Below are positions 1,066 through 25,254 of a stretch of 28,694 bases of DNA, one piece after another. The position numbers were made by a program, and so were the translations under genes. Under the pieces are notes generated by a model. It saw only the letters and a program-made list of their open reading frames with translations, made no database searches and was not told the DNA's origin. Source of the stretch: a virus; the IMG/VR virus record IMGVR_UViG_3300010885_076384, positions 1-28,694 of that record; one strand, 5' to 3'. The first letter of the stretch is position 1; every line of letters starts with the position of its first letter.

Positions 1066-1068
1066 TTC

Positions 1069-1554: not shown

Positions 1555-1559
1555 TTAAA

Positions 1560-3377: not shown

Positions 3378-3380
3378 CAA

Positions 3381-3620
3381 ATGAATAAAACTGAAATACC
3401 TAAAAAATCACTTGATGTAATTAGCTGCTTACAGTCTAATTATTGTACATTATCGTCTCCTACTTTATCTGCATATATAGTTTATGAAAATATAGACGGC
3501 GAACAATTTAAAATAACAGGGGGCAAATATGTATATAATTTACCAGATACTATATGTATAAACGGGGAAGATATTTTGATACCAATTACTGGCAAGATAT
3601 TTAATATAACTAATATATAA
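3381..3620 (+). CDS. Small phage protein of unknown function, 79 aa
   Basis: I do not recognise this protein. It has 79 residues with three cysteines and beta-strand-like alternation in the second half ([18 protein letters not shown]). It lies 3 nt after the gp6-like gene and 1 nt before the 973-aa protein, so it is translationally packed inside the baseplate operon. A small structural adaptor or chaperone is possible from position alone. Confidence 0.6.
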
Positions 3621-3621
3621 T

Positions 3622-6543: not shown

Positions 6544-6551
6544 TTTAAATA
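6544..6551 (+). promoter_or_regulatory. Late-promoter-like motif TTTAAATA
   Basis: TTTAAATA lies 6 nt before the ATG at 6558 and overlaps the stop codon region of the preceding gene. It shares the TAAATA core of the set described at 1058. Confidence 0.5.
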
Positions 6552-6557
6552 TTATAA

Positions 6558-7376
6558 ATGAGTTCTTACAACATTAACATATTCGCAGCTTTTTCGAAAG
6601 ACTCATTAGTTGATACGCAACAGAGACTGTCGAATTATAAAGACCCGAGCTTATTTCTTAATTCCACGCCAGTAAATCAAACATGTTCTATATCTGCGCA
6701 TAATTATGGTGATATTACTAATTTAGTTATAACCAGTAATAGTATAATGAATGGTAATTTTAATATATTTCCTATTAAATTTGCTGGTGAACGTGTAAAC
6801 TTTGTAGTGAATCTTGTCGATTATCTTGGGTATCAAGTCAAAGATTACAGTTTACTTAATTATAATAATTTTACATTTACTTTAAGCGCTCTTAATGGTA
6901 ATAACATAACTGGTGTTAGTTTTCAAACTGATTTTGGAACCTTAAGCTCGTTAACGCAAGGCGGTTTCTTTAAAGGTTATCTATATTGTCCGTTTGTTGT
7001 AAATGACGTTTCGATTAAAGCAATATATACCGATGCTAACATATCTTTAACAGGGTATTCGACTATATTTGATATTAATAGTTCATGTGGCGGCGAATAT
7101 CAAATCCGCAAAATAAATGAAGATTTTGACCAAACTAAAGCTTTTAAAAGTATAGGCACGCAGCCAGTATTGTTTGATAAGTCGCAATTTTTTGATAACT
7201 TTCTAGGACAAATAGTAGGCGATGCTAATTCTGATCCAAATACTTTAGGTATTGAGGTTTTTGAAAAAATAGCAAATTATGTTGCTAATATAAATGACCC
7301 AGATTTTTGTAATTTAGAGTCGTTAAAATCTTTATTAGATTTACTTAATGTTGACTATCAAAATTATAATTATTAA
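6558..7376 (+). CDS. N-terminal part of a large baseplate/tail protein, ended by an in-frame TAA
   Basis: These 272 residues form the N-terminal part of a protein whose frame continues unbroken after a single TAA (7374-7376). Residues 20-190 look like a beta-sandwich-rich domain (FAGERVNFVVNLVDYLGYQV; FTFTLSALNGNNITG). Residues 195-272 are helical and end in LLDLLNVDYQNYNY. The next in-frame codons read [21 protein letters not shown], which continues the same structural pattern and has no start codon for 477 nt. I therefore read 6558-9674 as one gene of 1038 residues with an ochre codon at position 273. The domain type is not recognised beyond a virion protein. It begins a transcription unit with a late-promoter-like motif. 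Confidence 0.72.
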   Translation: MSSYNINIFAAFSKDSLVDTQQRLSNYKDPSLFLNSTPVNQTCSISAHNYGDITNLVITSNSIMNGNFNIFPIKFAGERVNFVVNLVDYLGYQVKDYSLLNYNNFTFTLSALNGNNITGVSFQTDFGTLSSLTQGGFFKGYLYCPFVVNDVSIKAIYTDANISLTGYSTIFDINSSCGGEYQIRKINEDFDQTKAFKSIGTQPVLFDKSQFFDNFLGQIVGDANSDPNTLGIEVFEKIANYVANINDPDFCNLESLKSLLDLLNVDYQNYNY

Positions 7377-9674
7377 TACCCGCCTTCATTTAAACGATTA
7401 GTAGATATATTATCTGTTAAACATAAAAATTTATTCGGGCAAACTAACCAATACCAGACAAATTTTAATCCTAAAGGGTATGTAAACAGTGACAAGTATG
7501 GTATAAATAAAGGACCAGCATATAATTTTTCAACAACAACGTTTTTATCAAGTGTTGCTCCTTTTAGTCTCATAACTTATGAAAAATTTAGCAAAACGTA
7601 TAATTTAGTTAGTACTGTAATTCCAGGAATTAGTTCATATGCTTTATCAGCTGTTAATAGTAATTTTGGCTGGAATTTAGTTTTACCTCCAGGCATATCA
7701 GGAGCTGATATACCTAAATATTATGAATTTTTTAGTTATGTCCCCGATACTGAAAATTCTTTACTACAAAAATTCATAGATTTTGATAATAAAAATACCA
7801 CATTATCAATTACTAATAGTGGATATAATGAATATATAAAAACTGGCGGTATAATGGATAATATTTTATTGAATAACTTATTAACCAATTTACAAATCAT
7901 TTCTTGTTTACCAAATGAAGTTAATCTCAATATACCAACTTCAACCCCTACCCCGTCTCCGACGTTAACTTCTACTCCTACGGTGACTCCTACAGTAACA
8001 TCATCAAGTACACCTGCTCCTACAATAACATTAACTACAACCTCTACACCAACCTCTACACCAACTCCTACATTAACTCAAACTCCTACATTAACTCTAA
8101 CACCAACATTAACCCCGACATTAACACTGACACCGTCTTCTATAGCGATAGGTGCAGGTATATTATATGTAAGTTATGATCAAGATATACTTACACCAAC
8201 ACCTACTTTAACTCAAACAGGTACTCCTACTCCTACACCTACTAGTTCATTAACGTCTACCCCTACACCTACGACTTCAACAGCTCTATCAGGTACTCCT
8301 ACACCTACACCTACGACTTCAACAGCTCTATCAGGTACTCCTACACCTACACCTACGACTTCAACAGCTCTATCAGGTACTCCTACACCTACACCTACTT
8401 TAACTCAAACAGGTACCCCTACACCTACTCCTACGACTTCAACAGCTCTATCAGGTACTCCTACACCTACACCTACTTTAACTCAAACAGGTACCCCTAC
8501 ACCTACTCTATCAGGTAGCACTCCTACACCTACTCCTAGCAGTTCATTAACCTCTACTCCAACCCCCACTCTATCAGGCAGTACCCCTACACCAACTCCT
8601 ACTGTAACATTAACCTCCACACCAACACCTACTCTATCAGGTAGTACTCCTACTCCTACTCAAACAGTAACACCTACTCCTACTTCCACAGCAGCAACAG
8701 CCCCGACAGTTACCACTGATGGGTATGGAACTAGAACTCCTACTAGTGCTGAAATAACAGGGACGATAGTTAGTAATGGGGGGTCGACAATAACCGAAAG
8801 AGGAATTGTTTATGCTACTTCTCCAAATCCTACTATATCTAATACTAAAGTATCTGACGGCGCAGGTAGTCCTGACACATTAGGACCATTTACACACACC
8901 TATGCCATAACAAACTTCCATACTACCACATATGTAAGAATATATGCTACTAATGCTGTTGGTACATCGTATGGTACTGATATTAGTTTCACCTTGCCTT
9001 GTTTCATTAAAGGAACTAAAATAACTTTATCAAGTGGACTTAAAAAGAACATAGAAGATATATCTTATGAAGATTCTCTTTTAGTGTGGAACTTTGATGA
9101 AGGAAAATTTGACTCCGCAAAACCTATTTGGATAATGACTCCAGTACGTACTCAATATGTAAATATACTATTTAGTGATGGTTCAAAGCTTGGAATATCA
9201 GGGTACTTAAACCATGATGGAGGCCATCGTATATTTAATTTAGATAAGGGAGAATTTACTTATGCAATACCTAATGAACATAGCCCTATAGGAACCCATA
9301 CATTTAATGATAAAGGTGACATAGTAACAATAGTAGGTAAAGAAGAATCTACTGAGGTTGAAGAAATTTATAATGTAGTAACAAATCATCATCTTAATAT
9401 ATTTGCGGAAGGTATTCTCACTTCACGAAGATTAAACAATCTTTATCCTATAGTTGATATGAAGTTTATTAAAGACGAAAGGTCTATTACTTCAATAGAA
9501 AAATTTAAAGGTGTCCCTGCCGAATACTATGAAGGTTTAAGATTAGGTGAACAACCACTAGCAACTAATTCAGAAGGCTTCTTAGTAAAAACACCAGGAG
9601 AATTAGCTTATACACTGCCTACTATCAGTGAATTATCACAATGGACAGTAGAATTTATAAACAAAAAGTTATAA
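7377..9674 (+). CDS. C-terminal part: Thr-Pro array, FN3-like and Hint (hedgehog/intein) domains
   Basis: This is the same frame as the preceding gene, separated by TAA at 7374. Independent translation could start only at the ATG at 7854, giving 606 residues; the numbers below use that ATG. The 159 codons before it are clearly protein-like. Residues 27-283 are a Thr-Pro array with a short hydrophobic island (about 98-113). Residues 284-380 match a Bacteroidota-style FN3-like domain ([37 protein letters not shown]). Residues 383 to about 525 are a Hint domain: Cys383 in [11 protein letters not shown] is the expected nucleophile, then [14 protein letters not shown], then a C-terminal block [15 protein letters not shown]. 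The usual terminal His-Asn plus nucleophile is not evident (SRRLNN instead), so cleavage rather than splicing is more plausible. The last 80 residues are a unique tail. Confidence 0.75.
7936..8700 (+). repeat. Thr-Pro coding array of the Hint-domain protein
   Basis: This low-complexity coding array consists of T-P-T-P runs punctuated by TSTALSG, LTQTG and TLSGS blocks, interrupted once at about 8135-8195 by a non-repeat island ([16 protein letters not shown]). Codon pairs here favour CCT-ACA/ACT, unlike the ACA-CCG bias of the 4077 array. Confidence 0.9.
8271..8474 (+). repeat. Exact 42-nt tandem repeat ([14 protein letters not shown] unit)
   Basis: Three perfect 42-nt copies lie head to tail at 8271-8312, 8313-8354 and 8355-8396, with a fourth perfect copy at 8433-8474 after a 36-nt variant block. 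Each unit is 14 codons, so copy-number change preserves the reading frame. The sequence identity suggests recent duplication. Confidence 0.92.
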
Positions 9675-9681
9675 CCTGCTT

Positions 9682-10176
9682 ATGAAGATTCTCTTTCTCG
9701 ATCACCAAGGAGTAATATACTTGGAGAAAGCAATTTGGCCAGTTGGTAAACCAATACTATTAGATTTTGATCAAGGAGCGGTTAGTATTCTTAATGAAAT
9801 AATACGAGAGGTAGATTGTGAAATAGTTGTTTCTTCTGATTGGAAAACTTGGGTAGATTTACCTACAATGAAGTCATTTTATATAAACCAAGGTATAATA
9901 AAACCTCCAATCGGATATACAACAACAACTAATATTAAGGATTTAGATGATATTGCTTACTTAAGAGCTAAGGAAATAAGTGAGTGGTTAGATTCTGCAG
10001 ATAACATCACATCTTGGGTTGCAATAGATGACCTTGATATGCGAAAACACCTACCAAACTTTGTTTGGATTGAGGACGCAGAAAAAGGGATATTGGCAGA
10101 AGGAATAAAGAAAAGCGTAGTAGATCATTTAAATGTTAGATTAAATACAACTGGATACCCACACCTCAAACTATGA
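9682..10176 (+). CDS. HAD-superfamily protein (HAD_SAK-like)
   Basis: This 164-residue protein has HAD-fold order. Motif I is ILFLDHQGVIY at residues 3-13, with the first Asp at 7. Motif II is EIVVSSDWK at about 48-56. The late acidic motif is WVAIDDLDM near 112-120, followed by VWIEDAEKGI. The layout resembles the HAD domain first described in Swiss-army-knife RNA-repair proteins, common as a stand-alone gene in phages. Motif I is DHQGV rather than the DxDG(V/T) of active phosphatases, so the second Asp is replaced by Gln and catalysis may be altered or lost. It lies 7 nt after the Hint-domain gene and overlaps the protease start by 4 nt (ATGA), so the three genes are translationally coupled. 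Likely substrate: unknown 5' or 3' phosphate. Confidence 0.72.
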   Translation: MKILFLDHQGVIYLEKAIWPVGKPILLDFDQGAVSILNEIIREVDCEIVVSSDWKTWVDLPTMKSFYINQGIIKPPIGYTTTTNIKDLDDIAYLRAKEISEWLDSADNITSWVAIDDLDMRKHLPNFVWIEDAEKGILAEGIKKSVVDHLNVRLNTTGYPHLKL

Positions 10177-11450
10177 ATGATTTACATGTAACTAATTTAA
10201 AACAGGAAATAGAACGACTATTTTTAGAAAATAAATACGATATTCTTCAAGTAACATTTGGTCAAAAACAAATAAATGGCGAGTATATTAATGATAAATG
10301 TGTAAAATTTGGTGTAAAGCAAAAATTACCAGTTGAAACTATACCAGCAGACAAACTTATACCTAAAAATTTAACTATTGACGGTGTTATGTATAAAACT
10401 GATATAGTAGTGGTGCCGGAGAAAATATTTGCCCAACCTAATTACTGTTGGAATACCGGAACACAATCAGTACCACCAGTAGTTTCTGCACCGGTAAGTT
10501 ATAATAGAGCAAAAACTGCTATTTTAAGTGGTGGAATTTCATTTAGCGCACCACCAAGCACAGGGTACGTAAATGCAGGCACATTAGGTGGGATTGTTAT
10601 CGATAATTTTGATGGTAAAGTGGTTGGTATAACAAACAGCCATGTCGGTGCTGCTCCTGGAGGATCTATATACGAAGCTCCTACTCCTCAATTAATAGCT
10701 AGCTCCACAACTTACGGGTCAACAGCTTCAGCTTACAAAAATATAAAATCTTATCAACCAAGTTCGTGGGATAGAGGATCTGCTAACTACGCTCCTGATA
10801 TTATCGGAAACTTAAAAAGAGCTTACCCGATGACAACTACCGGTACAAATAAAATAGATGCTGCTTTAATAAATTTAACTGATAGTATTGTCAATACAAC
10901 TAGTTGGTACCCATTATGTGCAAATTTTTATTCAGCTACTCCATTTGCAAGTACAGCAGATATAGATAGTTTAACACTTTCAAACCCAATTTTTAAATCA
11001 AGTAGAACAACCGGGCCGGTTGGGCTTGCAGGGTGCGAATTAAGAGTTACTGGTACAAGCACCTCATTATCTGTAGATTACGGTACGCCTGGAGCTGGTA
11101 TATTATCATTCATTAATTGTTTAACTATAGAAAGCCCTGTAACTAATACAGTGGTAGGATCTGGCGGAGATTCTGGGTCATTAGTATATGGGTATATTTC
11201 AACTTCGCCTTCAACCAGTGCATGGAAAGTAGTCGGGTTGTTTTTTGCCGGTGATAGCACAGGTGGTTACGGTTTTGCATGCAGAATAGATGAAGTGACA
11301 AGCTTATTAGCAGTGTCTGCATATGATGGCATTAACGTTTCAGCAACTCCGAGTTTATGCTCTTATATTACATTACCTTACAGCACATATAGTAATACTG
11401 TGTCGACCGTTGTTAATGGTAAGAAATATTGGCAGGTTGGTAAGATTTAA
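10173..11450 (+). CDS. Trypsin-like serine protease
   Basis: The 425-residue protein shows a complete chymotrypsin-type triad in order and spacing: His157 in GITNSHVGAA, Asp229 in NKIDAALINL and Ser334 in GSGGDSGSLVYG. A final strand after the serine (WKVVGLFFAGDS) matches the fold. About 100 residues precede the protease domain, and no signal peptide is visible. Substitution of TAAH by TNSH is seen in divergent viral and bacterial S1-like peptidases. It is the last gene of the unit with the Hint-domain protein and the HAD protein, so a role in processing tail proteins, or virion-borne proteolysis at the host surface, is possible; neither is shown. The ATG at 10173 overlaps the upstream stop. 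This is not the usual T4-like prohead protease (gp21, a different fold). Confidence 0.8.
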   Translation: MNDLHVTNLKQEIERLFLENKYDILQVTFGQKQINGEYINDKCVKFGVKQKLPVETIPADKLIPKNLTIDGVMYKTDIVVVPEKIFAQPNYCWNTGTQSVPPVVSAPVSYNRAKTAILSGGISFSAPPSTGYVNAGTLGGIVIDNFDGKVVGITNSHVGAAPGGSIYEAPTPQLIASSTTYGSTASAYKNIKSYQPSSWDRGSANYAPDIIGNLKRAYPMTTTGTNKIDAALINLTDSIVNTTSWYPLCANFYSATPFASTADIDSLTLSNPIFKSSRTTGPVGLAGCELRVTGTSTSLSVDYGTPGAGILSFINCLTIESPVTNTVVGSGGDSGSLVYGYISTSPSTSAWKVVGLFFAGDSTGGYGFACRIDEVTSLLAVSAYDGINVSATPSLCSYITLPYSTYSNTVSTVVNGKKYWQVGKI

Positions 11451-11454
11451 TTTT

Positions 11455-11462
11455 AATAAATA
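11455..11462 (+). promoter_or_regulatory. Late-promoter-like motif AATAAATA
   Basis: AATAAATA ends 6 nt before the ATG at 11469, in the only gap between the protease gene and the next tail gene. One base differs from TATAAATA. Confidence 0.55.
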
Positions 11463-11468
11463 TATTAA

Positions 11469-13844
11469 ATGCTTTTTACCTCGACAGTATATTCTAATGT
11501 AGTTGTTTATAATAGCATTACAAATGATAAAAAAGATGAAAAATTTGATTTAGTCCGGCCTTTTACTTTTTTAGAATACTTAAATTACAGTAAATCATTA
11601 ACTCGAGATATAGTTCAATTTACTGACTATCAAAAATACCTTGAGAAATGGAATATATTAACAGAAGTTTCATATGTTGATTCGGCAACTCAAATTAAAA
11701 ACCAGTTTGTTGTGTTTTTAAAGACTATAACTTTAAATTATACAACAAATGAAGAAAAACGGTTTTTATCAAATATAGATTTTAATAGCTCAAGTGATTT
11801 AGAAATTGCTGCACCTTTTTATACCAATAAAATAAAAGAGATATTATTATATTTTGCAGAAAAAAGAGACACATATAAGTTAGATCTATTATTGGTTGAA
11901 AATAAAGGCACAATAGATAGTATACAAAGTTATTTAAAAACATTTGTAATCGAAACTATATTTGGCGATGATAACCCTACCTTTAATAATTTAACAGTGC
12001 CTCTAAGCACCATAAGCACCCAAATACAAATTGAGGTTGAAAATGGTTATGATAATTTTAATGATTATTTTGACTTAGACCCATCAAAAACTCCAGCATT
12101 CTATAATGCAATGGATACCCGTAAGAAATACTTTACAGCTAATACTAATATAAATGATAGTACGGTGTTTTTAGATTATAACCAAGCTATTATTAATCTT
12201 ATAAATTCAGAACAAGTTGTATTAAATGATCTTCAGAATTTAGTTGTTAATATCAACACACCTGATTTAGAGCTATTGCAAGATTACGACTTTATAGATT
12301 ACACATCCAGGACTATAGATAATGTAAAGCTTATATTAAATGCTGAACTTATAAAGAAATTTACCGGCACAGATTTTTACTATTTAAGTACTAATAATAA
12401 TAATGAAGTATTGAGTGGTGGGTTGTTTACTGCAACTTCTCCATATTCCAATCTATTAAACATAAATAATCCTGCAACATTAACTATACCTTCAACTGCA
12501 ACCGTTTTTGAAAGAGATGTTGGGTTATTTTTTAAGCCTACAAAGAGAGGTATCATACAGTTACAAACACCTTTTAAATATTATATTGACCCTTGTACAT
12601 TAAAACCGAATCATGTATATATATTTCCAGACCCAGATAGTTATGGGAATGTTTCTGGGGTAAGTAAGGTTGATCACGAGACACCTCTAACCTTTAAAAT
12701 GCAAGGTGAGGATATACAAAAAAACATATCATCTAATAATGCTCTAGGCAATACATTTGTTACTGATAATGATTTTACTTTTGATAGTTACCATTCAAAT
12801 GAGCAACGCACTAAAGCAAAAAGTTTTGCTACAACTTTATACAATAAAGGCGTTGTTAATCAATATTTTTCTGATGTATATGGCAATACATTTATTGGAT
12901 TTAAACAACAAAATTCAAATTATTTAAATAATTTAGCAGATAAAATTAACGTTAACGTGTCGCAAGTAGGGTTATCAAGCACAAGCAATATATTATACCT
13001 TAGTAGCATAGAAAATTTATTGACCGGGACGTTATCAGGTACGCAAACTCTTTCAAGTAATATAATTCTACCAAGTTCAAATCCGTCTATATACAATACC
13101 CGTAATAGTGTAGGAGCGTTTTACATTTATAAAATAGGAACTGATATTTTATCACCTTTATCTTCAGAATTTGGTGATATATTTTCAAAATATACTAACC
13201 AGATAACAGATTTAAAAAATAATTTAATTTCGATCGAATCCTATAACGATACGTTTGTATTTACAACAACTGCCCATACTATTATAGATAAAATTAATTA
13301 TAAAGATAATAATTTTTATAAATCCTCTAGCGTACCTTTAATACTTGATAATAAACGTAACAATATAACGAGTAATCCGTTTTTAATTAATAACATGTTA
13401 TATCTTATAACATATAATTTAGATACTTTAACTGTATTGTCTGCTTATAATACAAGGATATTTAATTTTAATATGTATTCATATAACATTAATACTAATG
13501 CAACTACTCGTTTATATAATAGATATAATACCAACGAACAGTTTAGCTATACAGTGGATACAAAGCTAGATGTATATAATGCTACTTTAGTGCATAACAA
13601 AAAATTAGACATATTTAATATAGCTTTAAATATAAAAGATACCAATAAAAACTTTTTCTTACACAATATACAAGCTGAAATAAAATCAGGCGCTTATATT
13701 ATATTGAAAGATACCGTATATCACCCCAATAATGTTAATGTGACTGTTAATTTTTATGATGGTAGTTTTACATATGATATAATAACTAATACTATTGTTA
13801 CAACACCAACAACTTCAAATACAAATGGAACCATCACTTTTTAA
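11469..13844 (+). CDS. Large tail/baseplate-associated protein, 791 aa
   Basis: I do not recognise a named family. The protein is rich in Asn, Thr, Ser, Tyr and Ile. The first 300 residues are mostly helical with repeated LxxLxxLxx stretches. The remainder is beta-rich with regularly spaced aromatic strands (FVFTTTAHTIIDKINYK; NMLYLITYNLDTLTVLSAYN) that recall beta-propeller blades, also seen in the minus-strand proteins at 15115-16371 and 19311-21941. No membrane segment or protease motif is present. It has its own late-promoter-like motif and overlaps the next gene by 20 nt, so the two are probably co-translated partners. A peripheral baseplate or fibre-attachment role is the best guess from composition and location. 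Confidence 0.65.
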   Translation: MLFTSTVYSNVVVYNSITNDKKDEKFDLVRPFTFLEYLNYSKSLTRDIVQFTDYQKYLEKWNILTEVSYVDSATQIKNQFVVFLKTITLNYTTNEEKRFLSNIDFNSSSDLEIAAPFYTNKIKEILLYFAEKRDTYKLDLLLVENKGTIDSIQSYLKTFVIETIFGDDNPTFNNLTVPLSTISTQIQIEVENGYDNFNDYFDLDPSKTPAFYNAMDTRKKYFTANTNINDSTVFLDYNQAIINLINSEQVVLNDLQNLVVNINTPDLELLQDYDFIDYTSRTIDNVKLILNAELIKKFTGTDFYYLSTNNNNEVLSGGLFTATSPYSNLLNINNPATLTIPSTATVFERDVGLFFKPTKRGIIQLQTPFKYYIDPCTLKPNHVYIFPDPDSYGNVSGVSKVDHETPLTFKMQGEDIQKNISSNNALGNTFVTDNDFTFDSYHSNEQRTKAKSFATTLYNKGVVNQYFSDVYGNTFIGFKQQNSNYLNNLADKINVNVSQVGLSSTSNILYLSSIENLLTGTLSGTQTLSSNIILPSSNPSIYNTRNSVGAFYIYKIGTDILSPLSSEFGDIFSKYTNQITDLKNNLISIESYNDTFVFTTTAHTIIDKINYKDNNFYKSSSVPLILDNKRNNITSNPFLINNMLYLITYNLDTLTVLSAYNTRIFNFNMYSYNINTNATTRLYNRYNTNEQFSYTVDTKLDVYNATLVHNKKLDIFNIALNIKDTNKNFFLHNIQAEIKSGAYIILKDTVYHPNNVNVTVNFYDGSFTYDIITNTIVTTPTTSNTNGTITF

Positions 13845-14373
13845 TTTTAATACATTATCGTTAGTATTATCGGCACCACCGCCGTTATCTACTAGAACCA
13901 TGTATTTATCATCATATATACAGGGGGTAACAAAAGCTCAGTTAAATTATAAACAGTTATTTTTTGTGAATTCGACAACGTTGTCTGGTATTAAACCTTT
14001 TAAGATAAAATTAGAATGGGATCAATCTTTAGGAGGTGAATCAACTGTAATTATAAATGATGTATATAAATTTGATATTAATACAGACCCCTTATCAACA
14101 TTTTCACCTCTTAATTCAGCCCTGTCATATTACGTCTACACACCTACTCAAATACAACCACAACAATTAAATTCTAAATACACAGTTTATTATGAAAATG
14201 GTATTATACATACATATCAAAATAAGGTATTCTTAATAAGTGACAATGTTATTGATATGAACTTAAACGTTACTGAGTTACAAAATGCTTACCAACCAGA
14301 ACTTAATGTATTTAACATTTCATCAGAAAAAGGTAATATGATGTTTAATGTAACTAATTACGGCGACGTATAA
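13825..14373 (+). CDS. Tail-associated protein of unknown function
   Basis: This protein has 182 residues from the ATG at 13825; an ATG 30 nt upstream would add a Gln-rich decapeptide that does not look like folded protein, so I prefer 13825. The protein is beta-rich: PFKIKLEWDQSLGG..., YVYTPTQIQP, KYTVYYENGIIHTYQNKVFLISDN. This pattern suggests a beta-sandwich or carbohydrate-binding-type module, but no family is recognised. It overlaps the 791-aa gene by 20 nt and its end overlaps the convergent lectin-like gene by 16 nt, marking the main strand switch of the structural region. Confidence 0.6.
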   Translation: MEPSLFNFNTLSLVLSAPPPLSTRTMYLSSYIQGVTKAQLNYKQLFFVNSTTLSGIKPFKIKLEWDQSLGGESTVIINDVYKFDINTDPLSTFSPLNSALSYYVYTPTQIQPQQLNSKYTVYYENGIIHTYQNKVFLISDNVIDMNLNVTELQNAYQPELNVFNISSEKGNMMFNVTNYGDV

Positions 14374-14975
14374 TTTAAATTTATATCTTTAACAGTAAAG
14401 ATAGTATCACCAGAATAAGATATACCAAACTTGCCTAAAGCAGGTAAGACCCCATTATCAATTAAATAGCTGCTATTAAAAGTAGCCAATTGATAGTAAT
14501 TGTTGTTTAATAGCTTATTAACAGTTATGGTTCTAAATTTATTCCTTACATCTAAACGAATAGTATGCTCGGTATCGTAGTCAAATGCTGTAACGTCTGG
14601 CAAAGGCAATGCAGATATAAACGTATAATTAGTTGATACTCTAGCGCCTATACTTAAAGGATTTTGCGATGGATTGCCGGTAGTAAAAGCGGATATACTA
14701 TTAATTTGTGTAAATGTCCCTTGAACGTCAAACCCTACTATAGCAAACATACCAGATACGCTAGTACCATTTGTTTTAATAGCACCTAATCCCACACCGC
14801 TACCACCTCCAGTTAATGTACTATTATTACCATCTATAAAAAATAACCCAAACCCGTTATTATTAACAGGACTCATAGATTGAGTATCCATCTTATAAAC
14901 AAAACTTACAGAAAAATCATAATCTGTATTAAATTGATTATTGTATAATATATTACTGCATGCAAGAGTTAACAT
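14358..14975 (-). CDS. Legume-type lectin-like (concanavalin A-like) protein
   Basis: The 205-residue protein resembles an L-type lectin or LamG-like jelly roll. It contains FSVSFVYKM, then GFGLFFIDGNNSTLTGGGSGVGLG (about 41-64), the strand-loop of L-type lectins, then SVSGMFAIVGFDVQGTF and a late EHTIRLDVRNKFRTITVNK strand pair. Such domains bind carbohydrate, which fits a receptor-binding accessory of the tail. The ATG at 14975 lies 8 nt after the frameshifted end of the propeller-like gene and has its own TAAATA motif 5 nt upstream. The 3' end overlaps the convergent gene by 16 nt. Calcium/sugar-binding residues cannot be assigned with confidence. Confidence 0.65.
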   Translation of the reverse strand: MLTLACSNILYNNQFNTDYDFSVSFVYKMDTQSMSPVNNNGFGLFFIDGNNSTLTGGGSGVGLGAIKTNGTSVSGMFAIVGFDVQGTFTQINSISAFTTGNPSQNPLSIGARVSTNYTFISALPLPDVTAFDYDTEHTIRLDVRNKFRTITVNKLLNNNYYQLATFNSSYLIDNGVLPALGKFGISYSGDTIFTVKDINLNYTSP

Positions 14976-14980
14976 ATAGT

Positions 14981-14988
14981 TATTTACT
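14981..14988 (-). promoter_or_regulatory. Late-promoter-like motif AGTAAATA before the lectin-like gene
   Basis: AGTAAATA ends 5 nt before the ATG at 14975 on the minus strand. It overlaps the TAA that ends the alternative-frame extension of the upstream gene. Confidence 0.45.
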
Positions 14989-15169
14989 TTAAAATGGTAT
15001 CAAACAAGGTTTTTTCATTATAACTTAATAACTGGTCATATCCATATACTAAGATATTATCATAATTCTGCAAACTATCGTATGATACTATATCATATAA
15101 GTATGAAAATGGGTCTAACCCTTTTGGACCAACAATCGAACCTGTAATATTATAACAAATGAAAAATTT
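14984..15169 (-). pseudogene. C-terminal extension of the propeller-like protein in the -1 frame
   Basis: The frame that overlaps the end of the 418-aa gene, displaced by -1, encodes a good protein-like tail of about 61 residues (KFFICYNITGSIVGPKGLDP..., ending KTLFDTILK). In contrast, the annotated frame ends in an unlikely FVIILQVRLLVQKG. This tail has no start codon of its own and fills the otherwise empty space up to the lectin-like gene. The frames join cleanly at A-AAT-TTT (15169-15163). It is either the product of a -1 frameshift or the remnant of an indel. Confidence 0.7.
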
Positions 15170-16371: not shown

Positions 16372-16374
16372 TGT

Positions 16375-16752
16375 TTAAGGTGTTATTGTATATTCTACCC
16401 AAGATAAACTATCCTCAACCCAATTATATAGTTTACTGTCAGATGGACGTGTAGTAGGTGCATCCCAACAACATGTAAGTTCATTTAATATCCAAGACGG
16501 GTATGGTTTAGGTGGTATAAAAGCATCTCTACCCGCATCATAAGTATAACCTATACCTGCATAATTTTTACGAAAAGGGATACCTCCTAGACGGTGCACG
16601 TTAGCAGAGGTATTATAGCTTGTCTGTAACCAGGTGCCTCCAAAATTTAAATCCTTAGCTAAAAAATCCTGACCGCGGTCTTGATCATTATCGCTGACCA
16701 CTACACCTCTTATTACTACGTTATTTGAATCTATTTCTACGAAATGGGCCAT
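16375..16752 (-). CDS. Conserved T4-like marine phage protein, 125 aa
   Basis: The protein begins MAHFVEIDSNNVVIRGVVV and continues with GGTWLQTSYN, RKNYAGIGYTYD and a Trp-rich C-terminal part (KPYPSWILNE..., CCWDAPT). From memory this N-terminus and the KYAGIG.TYD motif are typical of a family widespread in T4-like cyanophages and other marine myoviruses, usually near tail-fibre genes. Its function is not established; the tail-fibre context suggests a fibre or baseplate accessory. The ATG at 16752 has a late-promoter-like motif 6 nt upstream. Confidence 0.75.
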   Translation of the reverse strand: MAHFVEIDSNNVVIRGVVVSDNDQDRGQDFLAKDLNFGGTWLQTSYNTSANVHRLGGIPFRKNYAGIGYTYDAGRDAFIPPKPYPSWILNELTCCWDAPTTRPSDSKLYNWVEDSLSWVEYTITP

Positions 16753-16758
16753 ATATTT

Positions 16759-16766
16759 TATTTAAT
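16759..16766 (-). promoter_or_regulatory. Late-promoter-like motif ATTAAATA
   Basis: ATTAAATA on the minus strand ends 6 nt before the ATG at 16752. Confidence 0.45.
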
Positions 16767-16780
16767 TACCATGTTAGGTC

Positions 16781-19329
16781 TTAGAATGTTATGCTTCCGG
16801 TGCTCGTAAATTTATATGTATAAGGACCAGTCCCTGTGTAGCTGTTAGACCCAGTGGTCGATGCTGCTAATAAAGGAGTCACGATCAGCACCGCACCTGA
16901 ACCACCATTACCACCAGGGCCATAACTACTACCACCACCGCCGCCGCCGCCGCCGTAGCTAGCTGTGCCTGTGCCACCAGGATCAGCGCTGCCAGTGTTA
17001 TAACCGCCGGTACCTGCGTTAGTAGCACCTATACCACGGCCGTTAATATTTCCAGCACCGCCTCCACCTCCAGAATACCCACCAGTATATGCAGTACCAC
17101 CATCCCCCGATCCAGAACCGCCTGCTTGCCCAACACCGCTGTACCCACCACCACCACCAGCACCCACCCCGCCGCCGCCTGCACCGCCAGCATTGCCTTG
17201 CGAGCCAGCACCGCCAGCGTTACCACCACCACCACCACCACCTGAGCCACCCGCAGCACCTATTTGAGCAAGCCACGCAGAACCACCACCACCTCCCGTT
17301 GCAGTAGATCCATTAAATGCCGAGTCTTGTCCGTTTGCACCGAGAGCGTTGACAGCGCCTGCCGTTCCAGCCCCACCGTTGCCGACGGTAATGGCGAGCG
17401 CTACCCCTTTTGACACCGAGCCAGACCCTGTTACAAGACCACCACCACCACCGCCGGAGCCGTAGTTACTACCACCACCACCACCACCAGCAATTACTGT
17501 CCAACTGATGCTAACCGGTACTGATGAACTTGTTGGTGTAACTGTTTGAGTTACTGTTTGAGTAGGTGTCGGTGTTACTGTTTGAGTAGGTGTCGGTGTT
17601 ACTGTTCGAGTTACTGTTTGAGTAACTGTCTGTGTTAAAGTAGGTGTTAAAGTAGGTGTTGAAGTTACTGTCTGTGTTACTGTCTGTGTTAAAGTAGGTG
17701 TCGGTGTAGGCGTTGAAGTTACTGTCTGAGTTAAAGTAGGTGTCGGTGTAGGCGTTGAAGTTACTGTCTGAGTTAAAGTAGGTGTTGGTGTAGGTGTTGA
17801 AGTTACTGTCTGTGTTAAAGTAGGAGTTAAAGTAGGTGTTGATGTTACTGTTTGAGTTACTGTCTGTGTTAAAGTAGGAGTTAAAGTAGGTGTTGATGTT
17901 ACTGTTTGAGTTACTGTCTGTGTTAAAGTAGGTGTCGGTGTAGGCGTTGAAGTTACTGTCTGAGTTAAAGTAGGTGTTGGTGTAGGTGTTGATGTTACTG
18001 TTTGAGTTACTGTCTGTGTTAAAGTAGGTGTCGGGGTAGGTGTTGAAGTTACCGTTTGAGTTAAAGTAGGGGTAGGTGTGGAGGTTGCAACCGAAGTATT
18101 AGTTAAAGTTGGTGTTAAAGTAGGCGTCGAAGTTACTGTTTGAGTTAAAGTAGGGGTTGGTGTCACTGTTTTAGTGGGGGTTGGTGTCACTGTTTTAGTA
18201 GGGGTTGGTGTCACCGTTTGAGTTACTGTTTGAGTCACTGTCTGTGTTAAAGTTGGTGTGGGTGTTACTGTTTGAGTAACTGTCTGAGTTAAAGTGGGTG
18301 TTGGTGTAGATGTTACCGTTTGAGTTAAAGTAGGAGTTGATGTAGATGTAACCGTTTGAGTTAAAGTAGGAGTAGGTGTGGAGGTTGCAGCTGAAGTATT
18401 AGTTAAAGTTGGTGTTAAAGTGGGTGTTGGTGTAGGTGTTGATGTAACCGTCTGAGTTAATGTAGGAGTAGGTGTAGAGGTTGAAGCTGAAGTATTAGTT
18501 AATGTCGGGGTCGGTGTGGGTGTTAATGAACTACTAGGAGTTGGAGTGGGTGTAGAGGTCGGAGTTTGGGTTAAAGTGGGGGTTGGTGTTAAAGTAGGAG
18601 TTGGTGTGAGTGTTGCTGATGAAGTTAGAGTAGGCGTTAAAGCAGGCGCTTCTATTTTTGATAAATACGTAAGCACAACGTTATTATTATTAAGCGGAGT
18701 TATGCTACTTAACTTTGATTTAATCTTTTCATCTATAATTTGTTTATGATCCTCAGATAATTCTAGATTTTTAATATATATCTTTATATTATTATTTTTT
18801 CTACCAGGTATACCATATCTATTATGCGAAGCTGCTGTATCTGTATTATTCCTAGTGCCTTGTGGTATATCAAAATTTACAGCATTTATTTTTTGGTTAG
18901 CCAAAAAGTTAAACTTAATTTCATCTTCAGTTAAACTCTTACTATACACCTTAAAGTTATTAATTGTTAAATTAGAAGGGTAATCATATCCAACCAATTT
19001 AGGCGCTGGCTTATTATCAATATAAGGTACCCCAACGCCAAAATTATTATTCATAAAACTACTAGTCGTAAATTGCGTTATGCCAACCCCAGACAATACT
19101 TGGTTATTCAATAGTATGCCGTTATTATATAGCTGTAATAACCCCGCCACACTATCAAAAGCTAATGATATATTTTGAGTTGAGTATGGTAATAAATCTG
19201 CTTTAAATATAGCTACCATTTTATTCAACGTGTCGTTGCCAGAAAATAAATCTGCTCTTACTACAACATCACCTTGACTAAACTTATTAATTGTATTTAT
19301 TTCAGAAAAATTAACTAGATAATAATAAT
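16781..19329 (-). CDS. Fibre/adhesin C-terminal part: LamG-like, Thr-Pro array, glycine-rich tip
   Basis: This is the reading frame following a frame change inside the giant gene 21941-16781. The first plausible in-frame start (19396) gives 871 residues, but the first 25 look out of frame; the real protein sense begins near NFSEINTINKF (19315). Numbering from 19396, residues 30-160 form a LamG/concanavalin-like domain (VVVRADLFSGN..., ISLAFDSVAGLLQLYNNGILL, LTINNFKVYSKSLTEDEIKFN). Residues 165-250 are a linker region. About 250-625 is a long Thr-Pro/Thr-Val array. About 628-840 is a glycine-rich domain (TVIAGGGGGGSNYG...), and a short beta C-terminus closes it. Glycine-rich tips with poly-Gly runs occur in phage adhesins that bind receptors. 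The likely role is a host-recognition fibre, translated as one product with the upstream frame if the shift is real or corrected. Confidence 0.72.
16900..17515 (-). repeat. Glycine-rich coding segment
   Basis: This GC-rich stretch (runs of CCACCACCACC as read on the plus strand) encodes poly-Gly loops on the minus strand, strikingly different in base composition from the AT-rich surroundings. It corresponds to the glycine-rich adhesin tip and resembles the Gly-rich domain of many environmental phage fibres. Confidence 0.8.
17520..18640 (-). repeat. Thr-Pro/Thr-Val coding array, minus strand
   Basis: On the minus strand this encodes alternating T-x residues with a recurrent 14-codon block [14 protein letters not shown] and an insertable TQTV unit. 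Several adjacent copies are nearly identical at DNA level (about 17640-18020), indicating recent duplication, while the 5' end (18360-18640) is more diverged and carries the LTNTSAATS block also found in the plus-strand array at 4077-5138. Confidence 0.9.
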
Positions 19330-21941
19330 GAATTATAGTTTGTCGGTGATATAATTTCTTGGTAATATTGATCATACGCAGATAATGAAGTTGCACTAGT
19401 ACTTTCTATATCTTTCGTTGATAAGTTATATTTAGCAATTGCAATATTGCCTTGTGGATTTTTAAAGAAACTTAATAATTTAGGTTGATAATTTTCATTT
19501 ATTATATCAATTTTAAATCCAGATACTGCACTTACGTTTGTTGCATATGTTCCAAGTGTACGTTTAAACTGATCGTAAATACTTACAGTATTTTTTGTTT
19601 GTATATATAAATTGTTTTTATACTCCAATAAATCATATATCTTGTCTTTATTTGCGCTTAAAGTTAAAAATTCCTCACCAGTAATTAAGTTTTTATAATA
19701 AATTTTATCATTTATTTTTGAAACACCGTAATTACCTATCACCACTCCTTTAAACCCTGAAAGGTATGAAAGAGAGGTGCCGTTATTAACAACACTGCCG
19801 TATACAGTTGCGCCAGATGTTATAGTGTCACTGATAAAGGTATTATTAATATAATCAAACTTAACTAAATGGTTATTAGCATCGAGATATCTATAATACA
19901 CGTATGTATCACCTGAAAATGTCTTACTAATAACACCATTACTAAAAATGCCTGTTAAATTAGTAAATTCTACTTTCGAATACACTTGATTGTTTAAACT
20001 AAAATCTAAGAACCCGGGGCAGTCGTTTGTTATATTATAATAAAATACTTTTATAATATGATCAAATCCGTAATTTATAATATCTAAAATCTTATATGGA
20101 GCACCTATCGATGCACTTAAGTTTAATACAAACGATGCGTTGTAATTCTTATCATAGAATTTAAGTTCTGTGCTGTTATTAATGAAGAACCCAGGAGTGT
20201 AAATATTATTAGCACCACCTTTATATAAGGTTATACCTTCATCAAAATTATTACCTACAATCACATTACAATTTACAGAACTTAAGTTAGCAGTAAGCAA
20301 ATCTAAAGAGACTGTAAATGAATTATTATTGTTTATTGGCGATAATACAAACGACCCGTAATTATCTTTTAATGTAATACTATTAACATCTGTTGTATAA
20401 TATGAACCAGATAAGTATAAAGTAAATAAATTGGTATATGTTTCAAAAGTATTAATTACATTATTAATATATTTGTTACCAATACGAGTATACAAATAAG
20501 TTGAAGACGGTTCAAAAGTTAAGCTACTACGTAAATCGTAATATGTAAAATCGTTGGCTGGGTATACTTTATTAATGTAATCTTGCACCGAACTTGTAAA
20601 TGAAAAGACTTGATTTGTAGTGCCAGAAAATGCTACATTAGCTGAGGTTAATTTCGGGTTATAATACCTGTCGACCCAATATGATGTTAACTGAGCTGTA
20701 TCGGTATATAACCAGGTACACAGATATGATCCGTTAGCTTCATTATAATTTACAACGTTTGTATTAAAATTTAAATTTTTATATAATTTATCTGAAAATA
20801 CTGGCGTTTGACCCCCATATGAACCGTTATTAACTAAACTACTATCGTCAACGTTTAATACTTTATATGGATAAAGTGTATCAGGTAAAGTTAACCTAGT
20901 TGTTATATCTGGAATAAAAAGATACTCTTTAGTAAAATAATTATAATTTAACTGCAAATCTCCATTATATAATTCGCTATTTTGTTTAGATAAAATTGTT
21001 GTATAGTTTCTTTGATTTACATTCTTAGTAAAAGGTATTTTATCATTGATATAATAATCGTCTGAAATTACATTTTTAGCTTTATAGAAATCGACATATA
21101 CATCGGCACCTGATGCAAAATTTAAATCACTTTCATAATTATAAAATAATATATGGTTTTGCGGCACATCTTGAATACTTCTTGTTTCTTCAACTGCAAA
21201 ATTAGACACATCTGGTTTAGTATAATATATAAAATTATTTAAAAATAAAATATCTTGTTGTTTTGTATATGTTGTTGCAAAGATATCGCAGTCAAGTGAT
21301 GTTGTATTAAGAACATTAACAGCACTTAAAGTGTTACCAATTTGTCTAATAATATAAAAACTGTTTGCAACTCTATAAAACAGTTTAAGATACCCTTTAT
21401 TATCTAAACTATACTCAAATAAATCTGCGGCAGAAGTAGTTATTGTCGGCGTTATAACTGCAAAATAACAACTTAACGATGCGTTATCAACAGTTAAGCT
21501 TTTTGTAAAATTATTGTCAGTTGTGCTAATTCTACATCTCACCCCATCTATATCAATAAATGAAAAATAGGTATGTAAGTCATCGCTTAAAGAATACGAA
21601 AACGTTATTCTAGAAGAAAGAGCAGGGTTAGAACTAATAGTAGTGTATAAAGTATTAGCAGTTATTTCCGGGTAAGCACTTAAAGCTAAGTATGTAGGAA
21701 ACGATAATGATGTTTGCTGAACAACTGGTATGTATGCAAAATCATTAGCCTTTATAGTATCCGTTAAAAATATGTTTGAATAATTTTGGATACTTGTATC
21801 CTTACATGAGCTTAAAGCATTAACAAGGTTAAGAGATAATCCTTGCTGGGTAGCGAATACATTCTGATTGATAACTAAGTTCTTATCATGAAGATAAGTA
21901 AAATTAATCGGTTGTAAGGTATCTAGACCAGATAAAGACAT
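19311..21941 (-). CDS. Giant tail fibre/adhesin, N-terminal part
   Basis: The 876 residues are Asn/Thr/Ser/Tyr-rich and largely beta, with no recognised enzyme motif. The N-terminal 25 residues (LDTLQPINFTYLHDKNLVINQN) may attach it to the baseplate. Residues about 690-860 include propeller-like strands (KIYYKNLITGEEFLTL, YKNNLYIQTKNTVSIYDQ). The frame ends abruptly at a TAA (19311-19313) just after NYNSLLLSS, while the +1 frame continues with a LamG-like domain, so I interpret 21941-16781 as one gene of about 1,700 residues that is frame-disrupted around TTATTATTATCTA (19317-19329). It starts 9 nt after the 90-aa gene with a late-promoter-like motif 6 nt before the ATG. Confidence 0.7.
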   Translation of the reverse strand: MSLSGLDTLQPINFTYLHDKNLVINQNVFATQQGLSLNLVNALSSCKDTSIQNYSNIFLTDTIKANDFAYIPVVQQTSLSFPTYLALSAYPEITANTLYTTISSNPALSSRITFSYSLSDDLHTYFSFIDIDGVRCRISTTDNNFTKSLTVDNASLSCYFAVITPTITTSAADLFEYSLDNKGYLKLFYRVANSFYIIRQIGNTLSAVNVLNTTSLDCDIFATTYTKQQDILFLNNFIYYTKPDVSNFAVEETRSIQDVPQNHILFYNYESDLNFASGADVYVDFYKAKNVISDDYYINDKIPFTKNVNQRNYTTILSKQNSELYNGDLQLNYNYFTKEYLFIPDITTRLTLPDTLYPYKVLNVDDSSLVNNGSYGGQTPVFSDKLYKNLNFNTNVVNYNEANGSYLCTWLYTDTAQLTSYWVDRYYNPKLTSANVAFSGTTNQVFSFTSSVQDYINKVYPANDFTYYDLRSSLTFEPSSTYLYTRIGNKYINNVINTFETYTNLFTLYLSGSYYTTDVNSITLKDNYGSFVLSPINNNNSFTVSLDLLTANLSSVNCNVIVGNNFDEGITLYKGGANNIYTPGFFINNSTELKFYDKNYNASFVLNLSASIGAPYKILDIINYGFDHIIKVFYYNITNDCPGFLDFSLNNQVYSKVEFTNLTGIFSNGVISKTFSGDTYVYYRYLDANNHLVKFDYINNTFISDTITSGATVYGSVVNNGTSLSYLSGFKGVVIGNYGVSKINDKIYYKNLITGEEFLTLSANKDKIYDLLEYKNNLYIQTKNTVSIYDQFKRTLGTYATNVSAVSGFKIDIINENYQPKLLSFFKNPQGNIAIAKYNLSTKDIESTSATSLSAYDQYYQEIISPTNYNSLLLSS

Positions 21942-21947
21942 CTAAAA

Positions 21948-21955
21948 TATTTAAT
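21948..21955 (-). promoter_or_regulatory. Late-promoter-like motif ATTAAATA before the giant fibre gene
   Basis: ATTAAATA on the minus strand ends 6 nt before the ATG at 21941 and overlaps the last codons of the 90-aa gene. Confidence 0.5.
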
Positions 21956-22223
21956 GCCATTCACGGTAATCATCAAATAACATACTTTCTATGGGGTTAG
22001 TAATATTAGATAGATAGTCGTTATATTGTGGTAATACCTGTGATATGTTTATCTTACACGTTTCTTTAATAAAATTAGGCTCTATAGTTGAGAAGTATTC
22101 ATATATTACATCAGATTCATCAGGTTTTAAAAAAACCATTAACTTTCTTTTAACTTCGTCAGAGTTACTCGAATCACACTGCGACAGTATTGCTTTTACT
22201 TGCGGTAATAAGTGTTTGTCCAT
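21951..22223 (-). CDS. Small phage protein of unknown function, 90 aa
   Basis: I do not recognise this protein. It has 90 mostly helical residues with a high share of charged residues (HLLPQVKAILSQCDSSNSDEV; MLFDDYREWH at the end). Its start lies inside the 3' end of the split nuclease gene (50-nt overlap), which suggests translational coupling to it. The order nuclease, 90-aa protein, giant fibre is in one direction, but the fibre gene has its own candidate promoter. The composition is that of a soluble cytoplasmic protein. Confidence 0.62.
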   Translation of the reverse strand: MDKHLLPQVKAILSQCDSSNSDEVKRKLMVFLKPDESDVIYEYFSTIEPNFIKETCKINISQVLPQYNDYLSNITNPIESMLFDDYREWH

Positions 22224-22392
22224 AATGTTTCAATAAAATAGTAACTTCCCAGAAAAGATATGGTGTGGGGTATCTATAAAATTTATTACCATCATGATAT
22301 AATATACTTATTTGCCTAACTTTCTTACCTGACATTTTACTATATAGATATGCATATAAAGACAATTGTAAGCTATAATCATTGTATTGGCA
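22174..22392 (-). pseudogene. C-terminal part of the PD-(D/E)XK nuclease, after an in-frame TAA
   Basis: This is the direct in-frame continuation of the nuclease after a TAA at 22393-22395. The 72 residues begin CQYNDYSLQLSLYAYLYS and contain the QxxxY helix motif (Q175-Y179 counting the TAA as codon 166) that belongs to the RecB/Cas4 nuclease core. They end at TGA. The first in-frame ATG (22365) already lies within that helix, so independent translation would lose it. Conservation of the motif right after the stop argues that the interruption is recent, artefactual or read through. Confidence 0.75.
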
Positions 22393-22890
22393 TTATTGTA
22401 GGTGGTCTAAAGGCGACTTAAGATACTTATTATATTTATTGTTAAATAAGAACTTTTTATTCGTCTTAAAATCTAAAACATCAAACGAATCTTTATTTAC
22501 ATCCGCAATAATATCTGAGGTACCTGCTAGCTTATGATCATGATTATATAAAACCAGTTCACTATTTACTTTCTTATAATCCTTAAAATTAAACACACTT
22601 TCAAATTCATAGACTAACTCTTGATCTTGTTCCTCTATCTTGCCAGTTTTAATATAGTTTTCAAATATATTATGAATTTTTATACCTTTATCGCATGCGT
22701 CTTTTGATATTTTTTGCCAACCATCTATAACTTCTTGCTTTGTCTTACCTTCTCTTAATGCAACTCTATTAGCATGGAAATTAGTGTCAAAGACTTCTTT
22801 ATATCTTTTTAATAACTGCGAAACTGAAATATAAATATCATTTGTTTCCGGGTTTGTGTACGTATGTTTAGCTTCGTTAAAAATTACCAT
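22393..22890 (-). CDS. PD-(D/E)XK (RecB/Cas4-type) nuclease, part before an in-frame TAA
   Basis: The 165 residues show the RecB/Cas4-like nuclease arrangement: a GIKIH motif (Gly69, His73), Glu111 in the strand SELVLY, Asp126 in AGTSDIIADV and Asp140-x-Lys142 in VLDFKTNKK. These are the metal-binding and catalytic residues of the PD-(D/E)XK superfamily. The frame then meets TAA (22393-22395), and the missing QxxxY motif follows immediately in the same frame. The full protein would be about 238 residues, normal for stand-alone phage nucleases of this type that act in DNA recombination or processing. It starts 14 nt after the PKD gene. It is unusual to find it between tail genes. Confidence 0.82.
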   Translation of the reverse strand: MVIFNEAKHTYTNPETNDIYISVSQLLKRYKEVFDTNFHANRVALREGKTKQEVIDGWQKISKDACDKGIKIHNIFENYIKTGKIEEQDQELVYEFESVFNFKDYKKVNSELVLYNHDHKLAGTSDIIADVNKDSFDVLDFKTNKKFLFNNKYNKYLKSPLDHLQ

Positions 22891-22904
22891 TCAATCAGTA
22901 TATA

Positions 22905-23609
22905 TTATATTTTTGAATCTTCAACATAATAAAATACTGCATATCCGCTTGAACCTGCTAAATATGTTGAACTGTACCCTGATGTAGTTAATGAAATAGA
23001 AGTATTGGATGTTGAAGGTAAAGCGTACAAAGGATCATTCGTTGTAGTTATAGTGTCAACAACTGTTAACCCTAAATCAGTTTGAATAATAAATTTTGCA
23101 GAACTTTCTAAATGCGCATACTTGTTTGTTTCATATTCATTTTTATCAAAAAATGGCGACCTATTTCCTGAAACAGCTAACGATATTATTTTATTATCAC
23201 CAGATATAGTAGTCTGCGCAGAATTATACCGCGTTAAATAAATTGGCGAATTCGCTTGACCACTCCTTAATATTACATTTGCATTTGATGTCATAACCAA
23301 CGCATCATTTACCGCATTAAGAATTTTAACAGATGATAGGTATGTACTAACTGTACCATTACCCCCTGAATTAAAAACTGTTAACGTTACCGGATATATA
23401 CCTGGATAACTAAAACTGTGTTGTGCTGTTAAATCTATTGATGTAGTACCATCACCAAAATTCCATATTACTTTTTTATCTGATATACTATTATTGGTTG
23501 AAGAAAAATCAGCTATAAATCTAAACTTATCGAAAGGCAAGCAATAACCTGATGCCGGGGCTACTTCTTGAAACAGCCGGTTATATATCTTATAATTTAC
23601 ATTACTCAC
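22905..23609 (-). CDS. PKD-domain tail protein
   Basis: The 234-residue protein starts with GTG at 23609. Residues about 35-95 form a PKD domain: KVIWNFGDGTTS followed by HSFSYPGIYPVTLTVFN, the WxFGDG and YxxPGxYxVxLxV signatures. The remaining C-terminal part is Ser/Thr/Asn-rich and beta-like. PKD domains are Ig-like modules on surface and adhesion proteins and occur in phage tail proteins, so an extracellular binding or spacer role on the virion fits. It begins a minus-strand unit with a late-promoter-like motif 5 nt upstream, head to head with the plus-strand GMP-reductase unit. Confidence 0.78.
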   Translation of the reverse strand: MSNVNYKIYNRLFQEVAPASGYCLPFDKFRFIADFSSTNNSISDKKVIWNFGDGTTSIDLTAQHSFSYPGIYPVTLTVFNSGGNGTVSTYLSSVKILNAVNDALVMTSNANVILRSGQANSPIYLTRYNSAQTTISGDNKIISLAVSGNRSPFFDKNEYETNKYAHLESSAKFIIQTDLGLTVVDTITTTNDPLYALPSTSNTSISLTTSGYSSTYLAGSSGYAVFYYVEDSKI

Positions 23610-23614
23610 TAAAA

Positions 23615-23622
23615 TATTTATG
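23615..23622 (-). promoter_or_regulatory. Late-promoter-like motif CATAAATA before the PKD gene
   Basis: CATAAATA on the minus strand ends 5 nt before the GTG start at 23609. It lies in the 48-nt divergent gap and abuts the plus-strand candidate promoter. Confidence 0.55.
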
Positions 23623-23649
23623 TTGATTCTATAGGAAGTGAACTATAAT
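23623..23649 (+). promoter_or_regulatory. Possible host-type promoter for the GMP-reductase unit
   Basis: TTGATT (23623-23628) and TATAAT (23644-23649) are separated by 15 nt, shorter than the ideal 17. They lie just before the ATG at 23658. It is a weak call, because A/T-rich DNA yields such matches by chance and a Bacteroidota host would use a different consensus. Confidence 0.3.
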
Positions 23650-23657
23650 ATTCTATA

Positions 23658-23876
23658 ATGATCAAATGGATTGAAATTGTAGGTTTAATGAATTCTGAGT
23701 ATAGAGACGATCATTACTCAAAGGTAACAGTAGATACACTGTTACTTATGGTAGAGGAGAGAAACATTACGGATTTAATAGCGAATAAAGTAGAACATTA
23801 CTTACAAAACAATATACCACTAGATGCTCTAATTAAAGCATGCAGCGATTTTAACATTACAACAAACCATGAATAA
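23658..23876 (+). CDS. Small phage protein of unknown function, 72 aa
   Basis: I do not recognise this protein. It has 72 mainly helical, acidic residues (VDTLLLMVEERNITDLIANKVEHYLQ). It overlaps the GMP reductase gene by 8 nt, so the two are translationally coupled and form a short plus-strand unit with the glycosylase-like gene. No late-promoter-like motif precedes it, which hints at early or middle expression. Confidence 0.6.
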   Translation: MIKWIEIVGLMNSEYRDDHYSKVTVDTLLLMVEERNITDLIANKVEHYLQNNIPLDALIKACSDFNITTNHE

Positions 23877-24831
23877 TATATTATACTCATATAAAGACAT
23901 CGTACTTATGCCAGAGTACTCCAATCTCGTTTCCCGTAAGCTTGCTAATTGTAAGCCAACGTTTTTAGGTAAAGTCTTTAATAGTGTAGCAGTACCATCG
24001 AACATGAAATGCACTATAGATTTTGCAAAAGCTGTCGATTTGAGCGAGAAAGGATATTTTTATATCTTACATAGGTTTTATAATTATCTAGAAATTATTG
24101 ATTGGTTAGTTTATAACCAAGATTTGCCTACAATTTCAATTTCAATTGGTACGCAAAAGACTGATTACGAATTGATACAAAATATTGCTATTAACAATTT
24201 AAGAGTAGATTATATTACGATTGATGTTGCACATGGTCACCATTTATCAGTTAAGTTAATGATAGAGTTTATTAAAAAAACATACCCAACAGCGTTTGTT
24301 ATTGCTGGTAATATCGGAACATATAAAGCTGCGGTAGATATGAAATCTTGGGGAGCAGATGCTGCGAAGGTAGGGTTGTCAATGGGTAAGAGTTGCACGA
24401 CATATAATTGTACAGGAGTAGGTACCCCGATGTTTAGTGCAATTAGAGATATTTGTTATAATGATGAAAACCAAGTATATTACCCACCTTTACCAATCAT
24501 TGCAGATGGGCAGGTTAGAGAGGTTGGAGATGTTTGTAAAGCTTTAGTTGCCGGCGCAGATATGGTTATGATAGGTAGTGAGTTTGCAAAGTGTTGCGAT
24601 AGTCCAGCAGATATACTTATGAATCAAAAAGTATTTTACGGTAGTGCGTCTTCATATAATAAAAATTCAGAACATTATGTTGAAGGTCAAAAAGTATTAC
24701 TTGATCAACGCACGGAAAATTATTACGGATTTTTTAAACGAATTAATGAAGGTGTACAAAGCTGTATGTCTTATGCGGGGACAGACCGCTTAGAAGGGTT
24801 AAGGGAAATGCAATACAATATTCATTATTAA
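23869..24831 (+). CDS. guaC: GMP reductase (IMPDH/GMPR family)
   Basis: The 320-residue protein is a complete IMPDH/GMPR TIM barrel without CBS domains. Seen in order: YKDIVLMPEYSNLVSR at the N-terminus, ITIDVAHGHH (about 123-132), FVIAGNIGTYKAA (about 143-155), GADAAKVGLSMGKSCTTYN with the catalytic Cys176, then GVGTP, PIIADGQVREVGDVCKAL (about 208-225) and GADMVMIGSEFA. Lack of CBS domains, small size and the C-terminal EGLREMQYN segment fit GMP reductase better than IMP dehydrogenase; the usual CTTR is CTTY. The enzyme converts GMP to IMP with NADPH, allowing adenine nucleotide synthesis, which would suit an A/T-rich phage genome. IMP dehydrogenase activity cannot be fully excluded. Confidence 0.82.
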   Translation: MNNILYSYKDIVLMPEYSNLVSRKLANCKPTFLGKVFNSVAVPSNMKCTIDFAKAVDLSEKGYFYILHRFYNYLEIIDWLVYNQDLPTISISIGTQKTDYELIQNIAINNLRVDYITIDVAHGHHLSVKLMIEFIKKTYPTAFVIAGNIGTYKAAVDMKSWGADAAKVGLSMGKSCTTYNCTGVGTPMFSAIRDICYNDENQVYYPPLPIIADGQVREVGDVCKALVAGADMVMIGSEFAKCCDSPADILMNQKVFYGSASSYNKNSEHYVEGQKVLLDQRTENYYGFFKRINEGVQSCMSYAGTDRLEGLREMQYNIHY

Positions 24832-25002
24832 ATGCAAACTTTTTTACCAACATCTAACTTTGCTGAATCTGCTAAATATCTAGACTATAGACGTCTTGGA
24901 AAACAAAGAGTTGAGGTTCTTCAACTTCTTAATTCATTTCATAAACCTAACTATAAAGGATGGAAAAACCACCCTGCTCGTGAGATGTGGCGTGGGTATT
25001 AA
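24832..25002 (+). CDS. Pyrimidine-dimer glycosylase family protein, part before an in-frame TAA
   Basis: The ATG at 24832 directly follows the GMP reductase stop. The 56 residues run MQTFLPTSNFAESAKYLDYR, then RLGKQRVEVLQLL, NHPAREMWRGY, then TAA (25000-25002). This start and the RLGKQR / NHP..MW.GY motifs are diagnostic, from memory, of the small family annotated as pyrimidine dimer DNA glycosylase (Pyr_excise, MSMEG_6728-type), related to T4 endonuclease V. In that family the MW.GY motif is normally followed by Glu and then AL, exactly where TAA sits here before NALVMYG, so the codon was most likely GAA. The product would act in repair of UV damage if made full length. Confidence 0.75.
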   Translation: MQTFLPTSNFAESAKYLDYRRLGKQRVEVLQLLNSFHKPNYKGWKNHPAREMWRGY

Positions 25003-25254
25003 AATGCATTAGTAATGTACGGACAAGCTATTTGTAATGAATGGTTATCACGAGGATATAAAGATACTTGTTTTGGAAAAATTACAGCGCACTATAATAG
25101 TAATTTAAACTCAGAATTACCATCTTGGGTGGGTCGTGAAGATATTCACTTATCTCATAAATCTAATTTAATACGTAAGTACCCAGAATATTATAAGCCT
25201 TTCTGGCCAGATGTACCTGATAACTTAGAATACATTTGGGTAAAAAATACATAA
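25003..25254 (+). pseudogene. C-terminal part of the glycosylase family protein, after an in-frame TAA
   Basis: This is the same frame as the preceding piece: NALVMYGQAICNEWLSRGYK, then WVGREDIHLSHKSNLIRK, YPEYYKPFWPDVPDNLEYIW. These motifs (EW..RGY.D, H.SH.SNL.RK.PE.Y, LPY.W-like end) complete the family pattern without further damage. An ATG at 25015 could restart translation but would lack the N-terminal half. The total length with the stop bridged is 140 codons, normal for the family. The gene ends inside the stem of the bidirectional terminator. Confidence 0.75.

Follow-up and report, generated by a model that had tools for sequence, protein, structure and literature searches.

Five gene interruptions in a T4-like environmental phage record are probably private to that record and of technical origin

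The stop codon reassignments that two papers describe in phages, those of genetic codes 15 and 4, concern TAG or TGA; they extend across entire genomes or lineages, in many cases accompanied by suppressor tRNAs (PMC9523058, PMC12386605). Draft long-read assemblies, for their part, carry gene-fragmenting errors at under 0.05% (PMC12007338). Here we analysed IMGVR_UViG_3300010885_076384, a virus record that stands alone and is 28,694 bases long (its whole length is called the window below), in which five genes are interrupted. It resembles phage stop reassignment in that its genes look fragmented under the standard code. However, the codon affected is TAA, the stops are confined to a single record and absent from a near-identical sister contig, and there are frame changes besides. 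Like the errors of draft long-read assemblies (PMC12007338), the window has genes that are intact but for single premature stops or shifts of frame, and these are absent from close references; in contrast to that case, substitutions account for three of the five lesions. Recoding of TAA alongside TAA termination would, if true, be new, but the comparisons presented here speak against it.

The window encodes gp25-like and gp6-like baseplate wedge proteins with distant cyanophage matches, and the genes around the interruptions are those of a contractile-tailed, T4-like environmental phage. All five interruptions listed in an earlier note on this sequence exist. The first (site 1) is a TAA at 7374-7376, the only break in the open frame of a plus-strand gene of the tail/baseplate region (6558-7856); read through, this gene gave no match among isolated phages. 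The second is a one-base frame change in a minus-strand tail-region gene (14978-16371), and the third, a frame change at about 19315-19344, splits a large minus-strand gene of the tail region (16781-21941), the second part of which runs on into TP repeats and a Gly-rich domain. Site 4 is an in-frame TAA at 22393-22395 in a minus-strand gene (22221-22890) whose product matches PD-(D/E)XK exonuclease families (phrog_298, E 5.3e-36). Site 5 is an in-frame TAA at 25000-25002 in a plus-strand gene for a pyrimidine dimer DNA glycosylase (24832-25254); the read-through product matches Pfam Pyr_excise with E 1.8e-21. At neither of the two indels does the change lie simply in the length of a homopolymer, which would have been diagnostic of a platform. 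The second interruption had been placed at about 15163, and while the frame change itself is present in the record, the sister contig puts it at 15154. A slippery site, AAATTTT, near 15163 was dropped as a candidate since the sister locates the difference a few bases further on. An apparent additional gene break at about 13844 was also dropped, as it reflects nothing more than an ordinary overlap, the next gene starting at 13825.

The comparison with sister genomes proposed in the earlier note could be made directly for the first two sites. Contig IMGVR_UViG_3300027754_000314 (G001, or L089) aligns with positions 1-17032 of the window at 99.96% identity, with six substitutions and one indel (7 differences in 17,032, or 0.041%), and is intact at both 7374 and 15154. 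At 7374 the sister has GAA, and other relatives have a sense codon there and no stop; the TAA is private to the window. At 15154 the sister's frame is unbroken and the one-base difference lies on the window side; the frame is also continuous in a less similar contig, IMGVR_UViG_3300046009_012335 (G003, or L110). The remaining five differences from the sister are synonymous (458, 2711 and 13139) or missense (3088 and 6741). At every difference that could be polarised by more distant relatives (2711, 3088, 6741 and 7374), it is the window that has the odd allele: most relatives, among them the closest, have AAG at 2711, while 3088 is alanine in the sister and in L088, and 6741 is glycine in all eight relatives listed. 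Since the odd alleles are on the window side, these changes belong to the window record and not to the lineage. A single near-identical sister contig thus settles the question for the sites within its span, and recoding at sites 1 and 2 is effectively refuted.

The sister ends at 17032, and a near-identical contig covering sites 3-5 was searched for and not found, so that the comparison at these three sites draws on relatives with identities of 54-79% or lower. In the relatives read there, one syntenic and the others more distant, the frames are open. The uninterrupted genes that the earlier note expected of sister genomes, were the lesions errors, were therefore seen in a near-identical sister at two sites and in more distant relatives only at the other three.

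For the large gene at site 3, a pattern scan found no relatives, and it was reached by synteny in G003. There it encodes one continuous protein of 1359 aa, homologous to the window on both sides of the break, with 262 codons at the site compared with about 9 in the window. This extra stretch of G003 (L110 11753-12538) is absent from the window and also from the distant relatives L043 and L050, which have a short linker within a single open frame. Judged from these sequences, the short form is probably ancestral, such that the window would need only a one-base change. The simpler reading of this site is a single-base event in a form that is short by nature, although a larger sequence loss may have taken place.

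In 82 loci the residue at 22393 is N, Q, Y, A, H, T or another, and in none is it a stop; the position is variable, with E in only 4 of the 82 and Q (CAA) in the closest relative, G003. Of six relatives compared at 25000, five carry E and the sixth P, and the gene is uninterrupted in L082-L087. The earlier note had remarked on the single base that separates each TAA from GAA. An intact GAA is shown at 7374 and likely at 25000, but unsupported at 22393, and the remark carries little weight, since it holds for every TAA codon.

The earlier note had raised the possibility of programmed recoding, that is, TAA read as an amino acid together with programmed frameshifting in late tail genes, and in keeping with this the genes stay intact past each break. 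However, TAA is not avoided, being the terminator of 17 of the 18 intact genes in the window. The suppressor tRNA with a UUA anticodon that the note had suggested looking for was found neither in the window nor in any of 35 related loci scanned; the matches with anticodon taa in this set are leucine tRNAs that read TTA, and the twelve tRNA genes of G003 include no UUA anticodon. Ochre suppression could not, in any case, mend the two frame changes. Compared with shuffled sequences, 80-nt stretches at the five sites showed no stable RNA structure (z between -1.43 and 1.77), nor was a stimulatory structure found 3' of the two frame-change sites (z 0.56 and 0.87). Finally, at the window's sites none of the relatives examined has the stop or the frame change, and no conserved frame change was found, the frame being continuous at site 2 in the sister and G003 and at site 3 in G003, L043 and L050.

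We also compared the window with its background. A homology scan of 105 sequences, in which one non-overlapping set of frames was used per contig to keep out antisense shadow frames, gave 1.31 Mb of homology-covered sequence, 18.8 kb of it in the window. Across these related phage contigs, in-frame stops with at least three supporting queries occurred in the window only, with 23 queries supporting the stop at 7374, 81 that at 22395 and 4 that at 25000. Frame changes with at least three supporters were present in other contigs at about four places (L022, L094, L073 and, weakly, L102). The 18.8 kb of the window hold three such stops and one or more frame changes, far more than the background, and its position as a clear outlier fits a cause specific to the record. 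The excess of nonsense changes as such is mild. Under uniform single-base change in these genes, 5.0% of substitutions are nonsense, 48% of the nonsense changes give TAA, and GAA to TAA makes up 5%. The three nonsense changes among some 10-12 expected private substitutions compare with 0.5-0.6 expected at random (P about 0.01-0.02, for a window that had been chosen for showing interruptions).

The most likely explanation, to which we assign a probability of roughly three in four, is that the five lesions are private to one record and arose through error in amplification, sequencing or low-depth assembly. The T4-like phage population would then carry intact genes, with the lesions introduced into the record by technical error. 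For sites 1 and 2 the intact state was observed; what we infer is a technical cause, shared by sites 3-5, and an intact population at these sites as well. The rate of difference from the sister is near the published figure for gene-fragmenting errors (PMC12007338), a likeness that would carry weight if the record comes from such an assembly. Counting against technical error are the mild excess of nonsense changes, the two indels that point to no platform and the lower identity of the relatives available at sites 3-5. The record illustrates how a few lesions, private to a single metagenomic contig, can imitate recoding.

It is possible, but unlikely, that the window derives from a genuine defective variant, either a dead-end genome that persists only through co-infection or a copy inactivated not long ago, while the rest of the population is intact. 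The sister shows that an intact population exists, and the synonymous differences at 458, 2711 and 13139 represent strain variation, real or apparent; both points speak for such a variant. However, a contractile-tailed phage would then have lost one gene of the baseplate region, two of the tail region and those for a nuclease and for repair. Broad decay is absent, and with only seven events in 17 kb relative to an intact sister, the hypermutated or decaying copy that the earlier note had considered is disfavoured. Additionally, a scan of bacterial genome assemblies with the gp6-like baseplate protein turned up no related contig.

We consider it doubtful that the lesions are of mixed origin, with errors at sites 1, 2, 4 and 5 and, at site 3, a tail domain truly lost or gained, with or without a small join error. 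This reading overlaps with that of technical error and is not exclusive of it. The difference in length between G003 and the window at site 3 speaks for it, but the short linker in one open frame in L043 and L050 argues against it. A natural variant surviving with all five lesions, through complementation during co-infection or host ochre suppression at the three TAA codons, is highly improbable. Programmed recoding is the least credible reading of all, given a sister that needs none at 7374 or 15154 and a window in which TAA serves as the usual terminator.

Several other features of the window are worth recording. Encoded amid its tail genes are a HAD_SAK_2-like protein of RNA repair type (9682-10176) and, at 23869-25254, an IMPDH/GMP reductase-like enzyme together with the pyrimidine dimer glycosylase. 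The product of the gene at 7854-9674 has a C-terminal part, starting CFIKGTKI, that is Hint (intein/hedgehog)-like, with a sub-threshold match only to Pfam Hom_end_hint (E 0.007). Long Thr/Pro repeat tracts are present in three genes (3622-6543, 7854-9674 and 16781-19396). Being oppositely oriented and about 9-10 kb apart, they give rise to many imperfect inverted repeats, which could promote misassembly or inversion. Relative to the window, G003 has the whole block from the gene at 11469 to the IMPDH/GMP reductase-like gene (11469-24831; L110 6195-18044) inverted. The ends of this block in G003 showed no strong inverted repeat. Where L102 and L103 could be read, the block has the same orientation as in the window.
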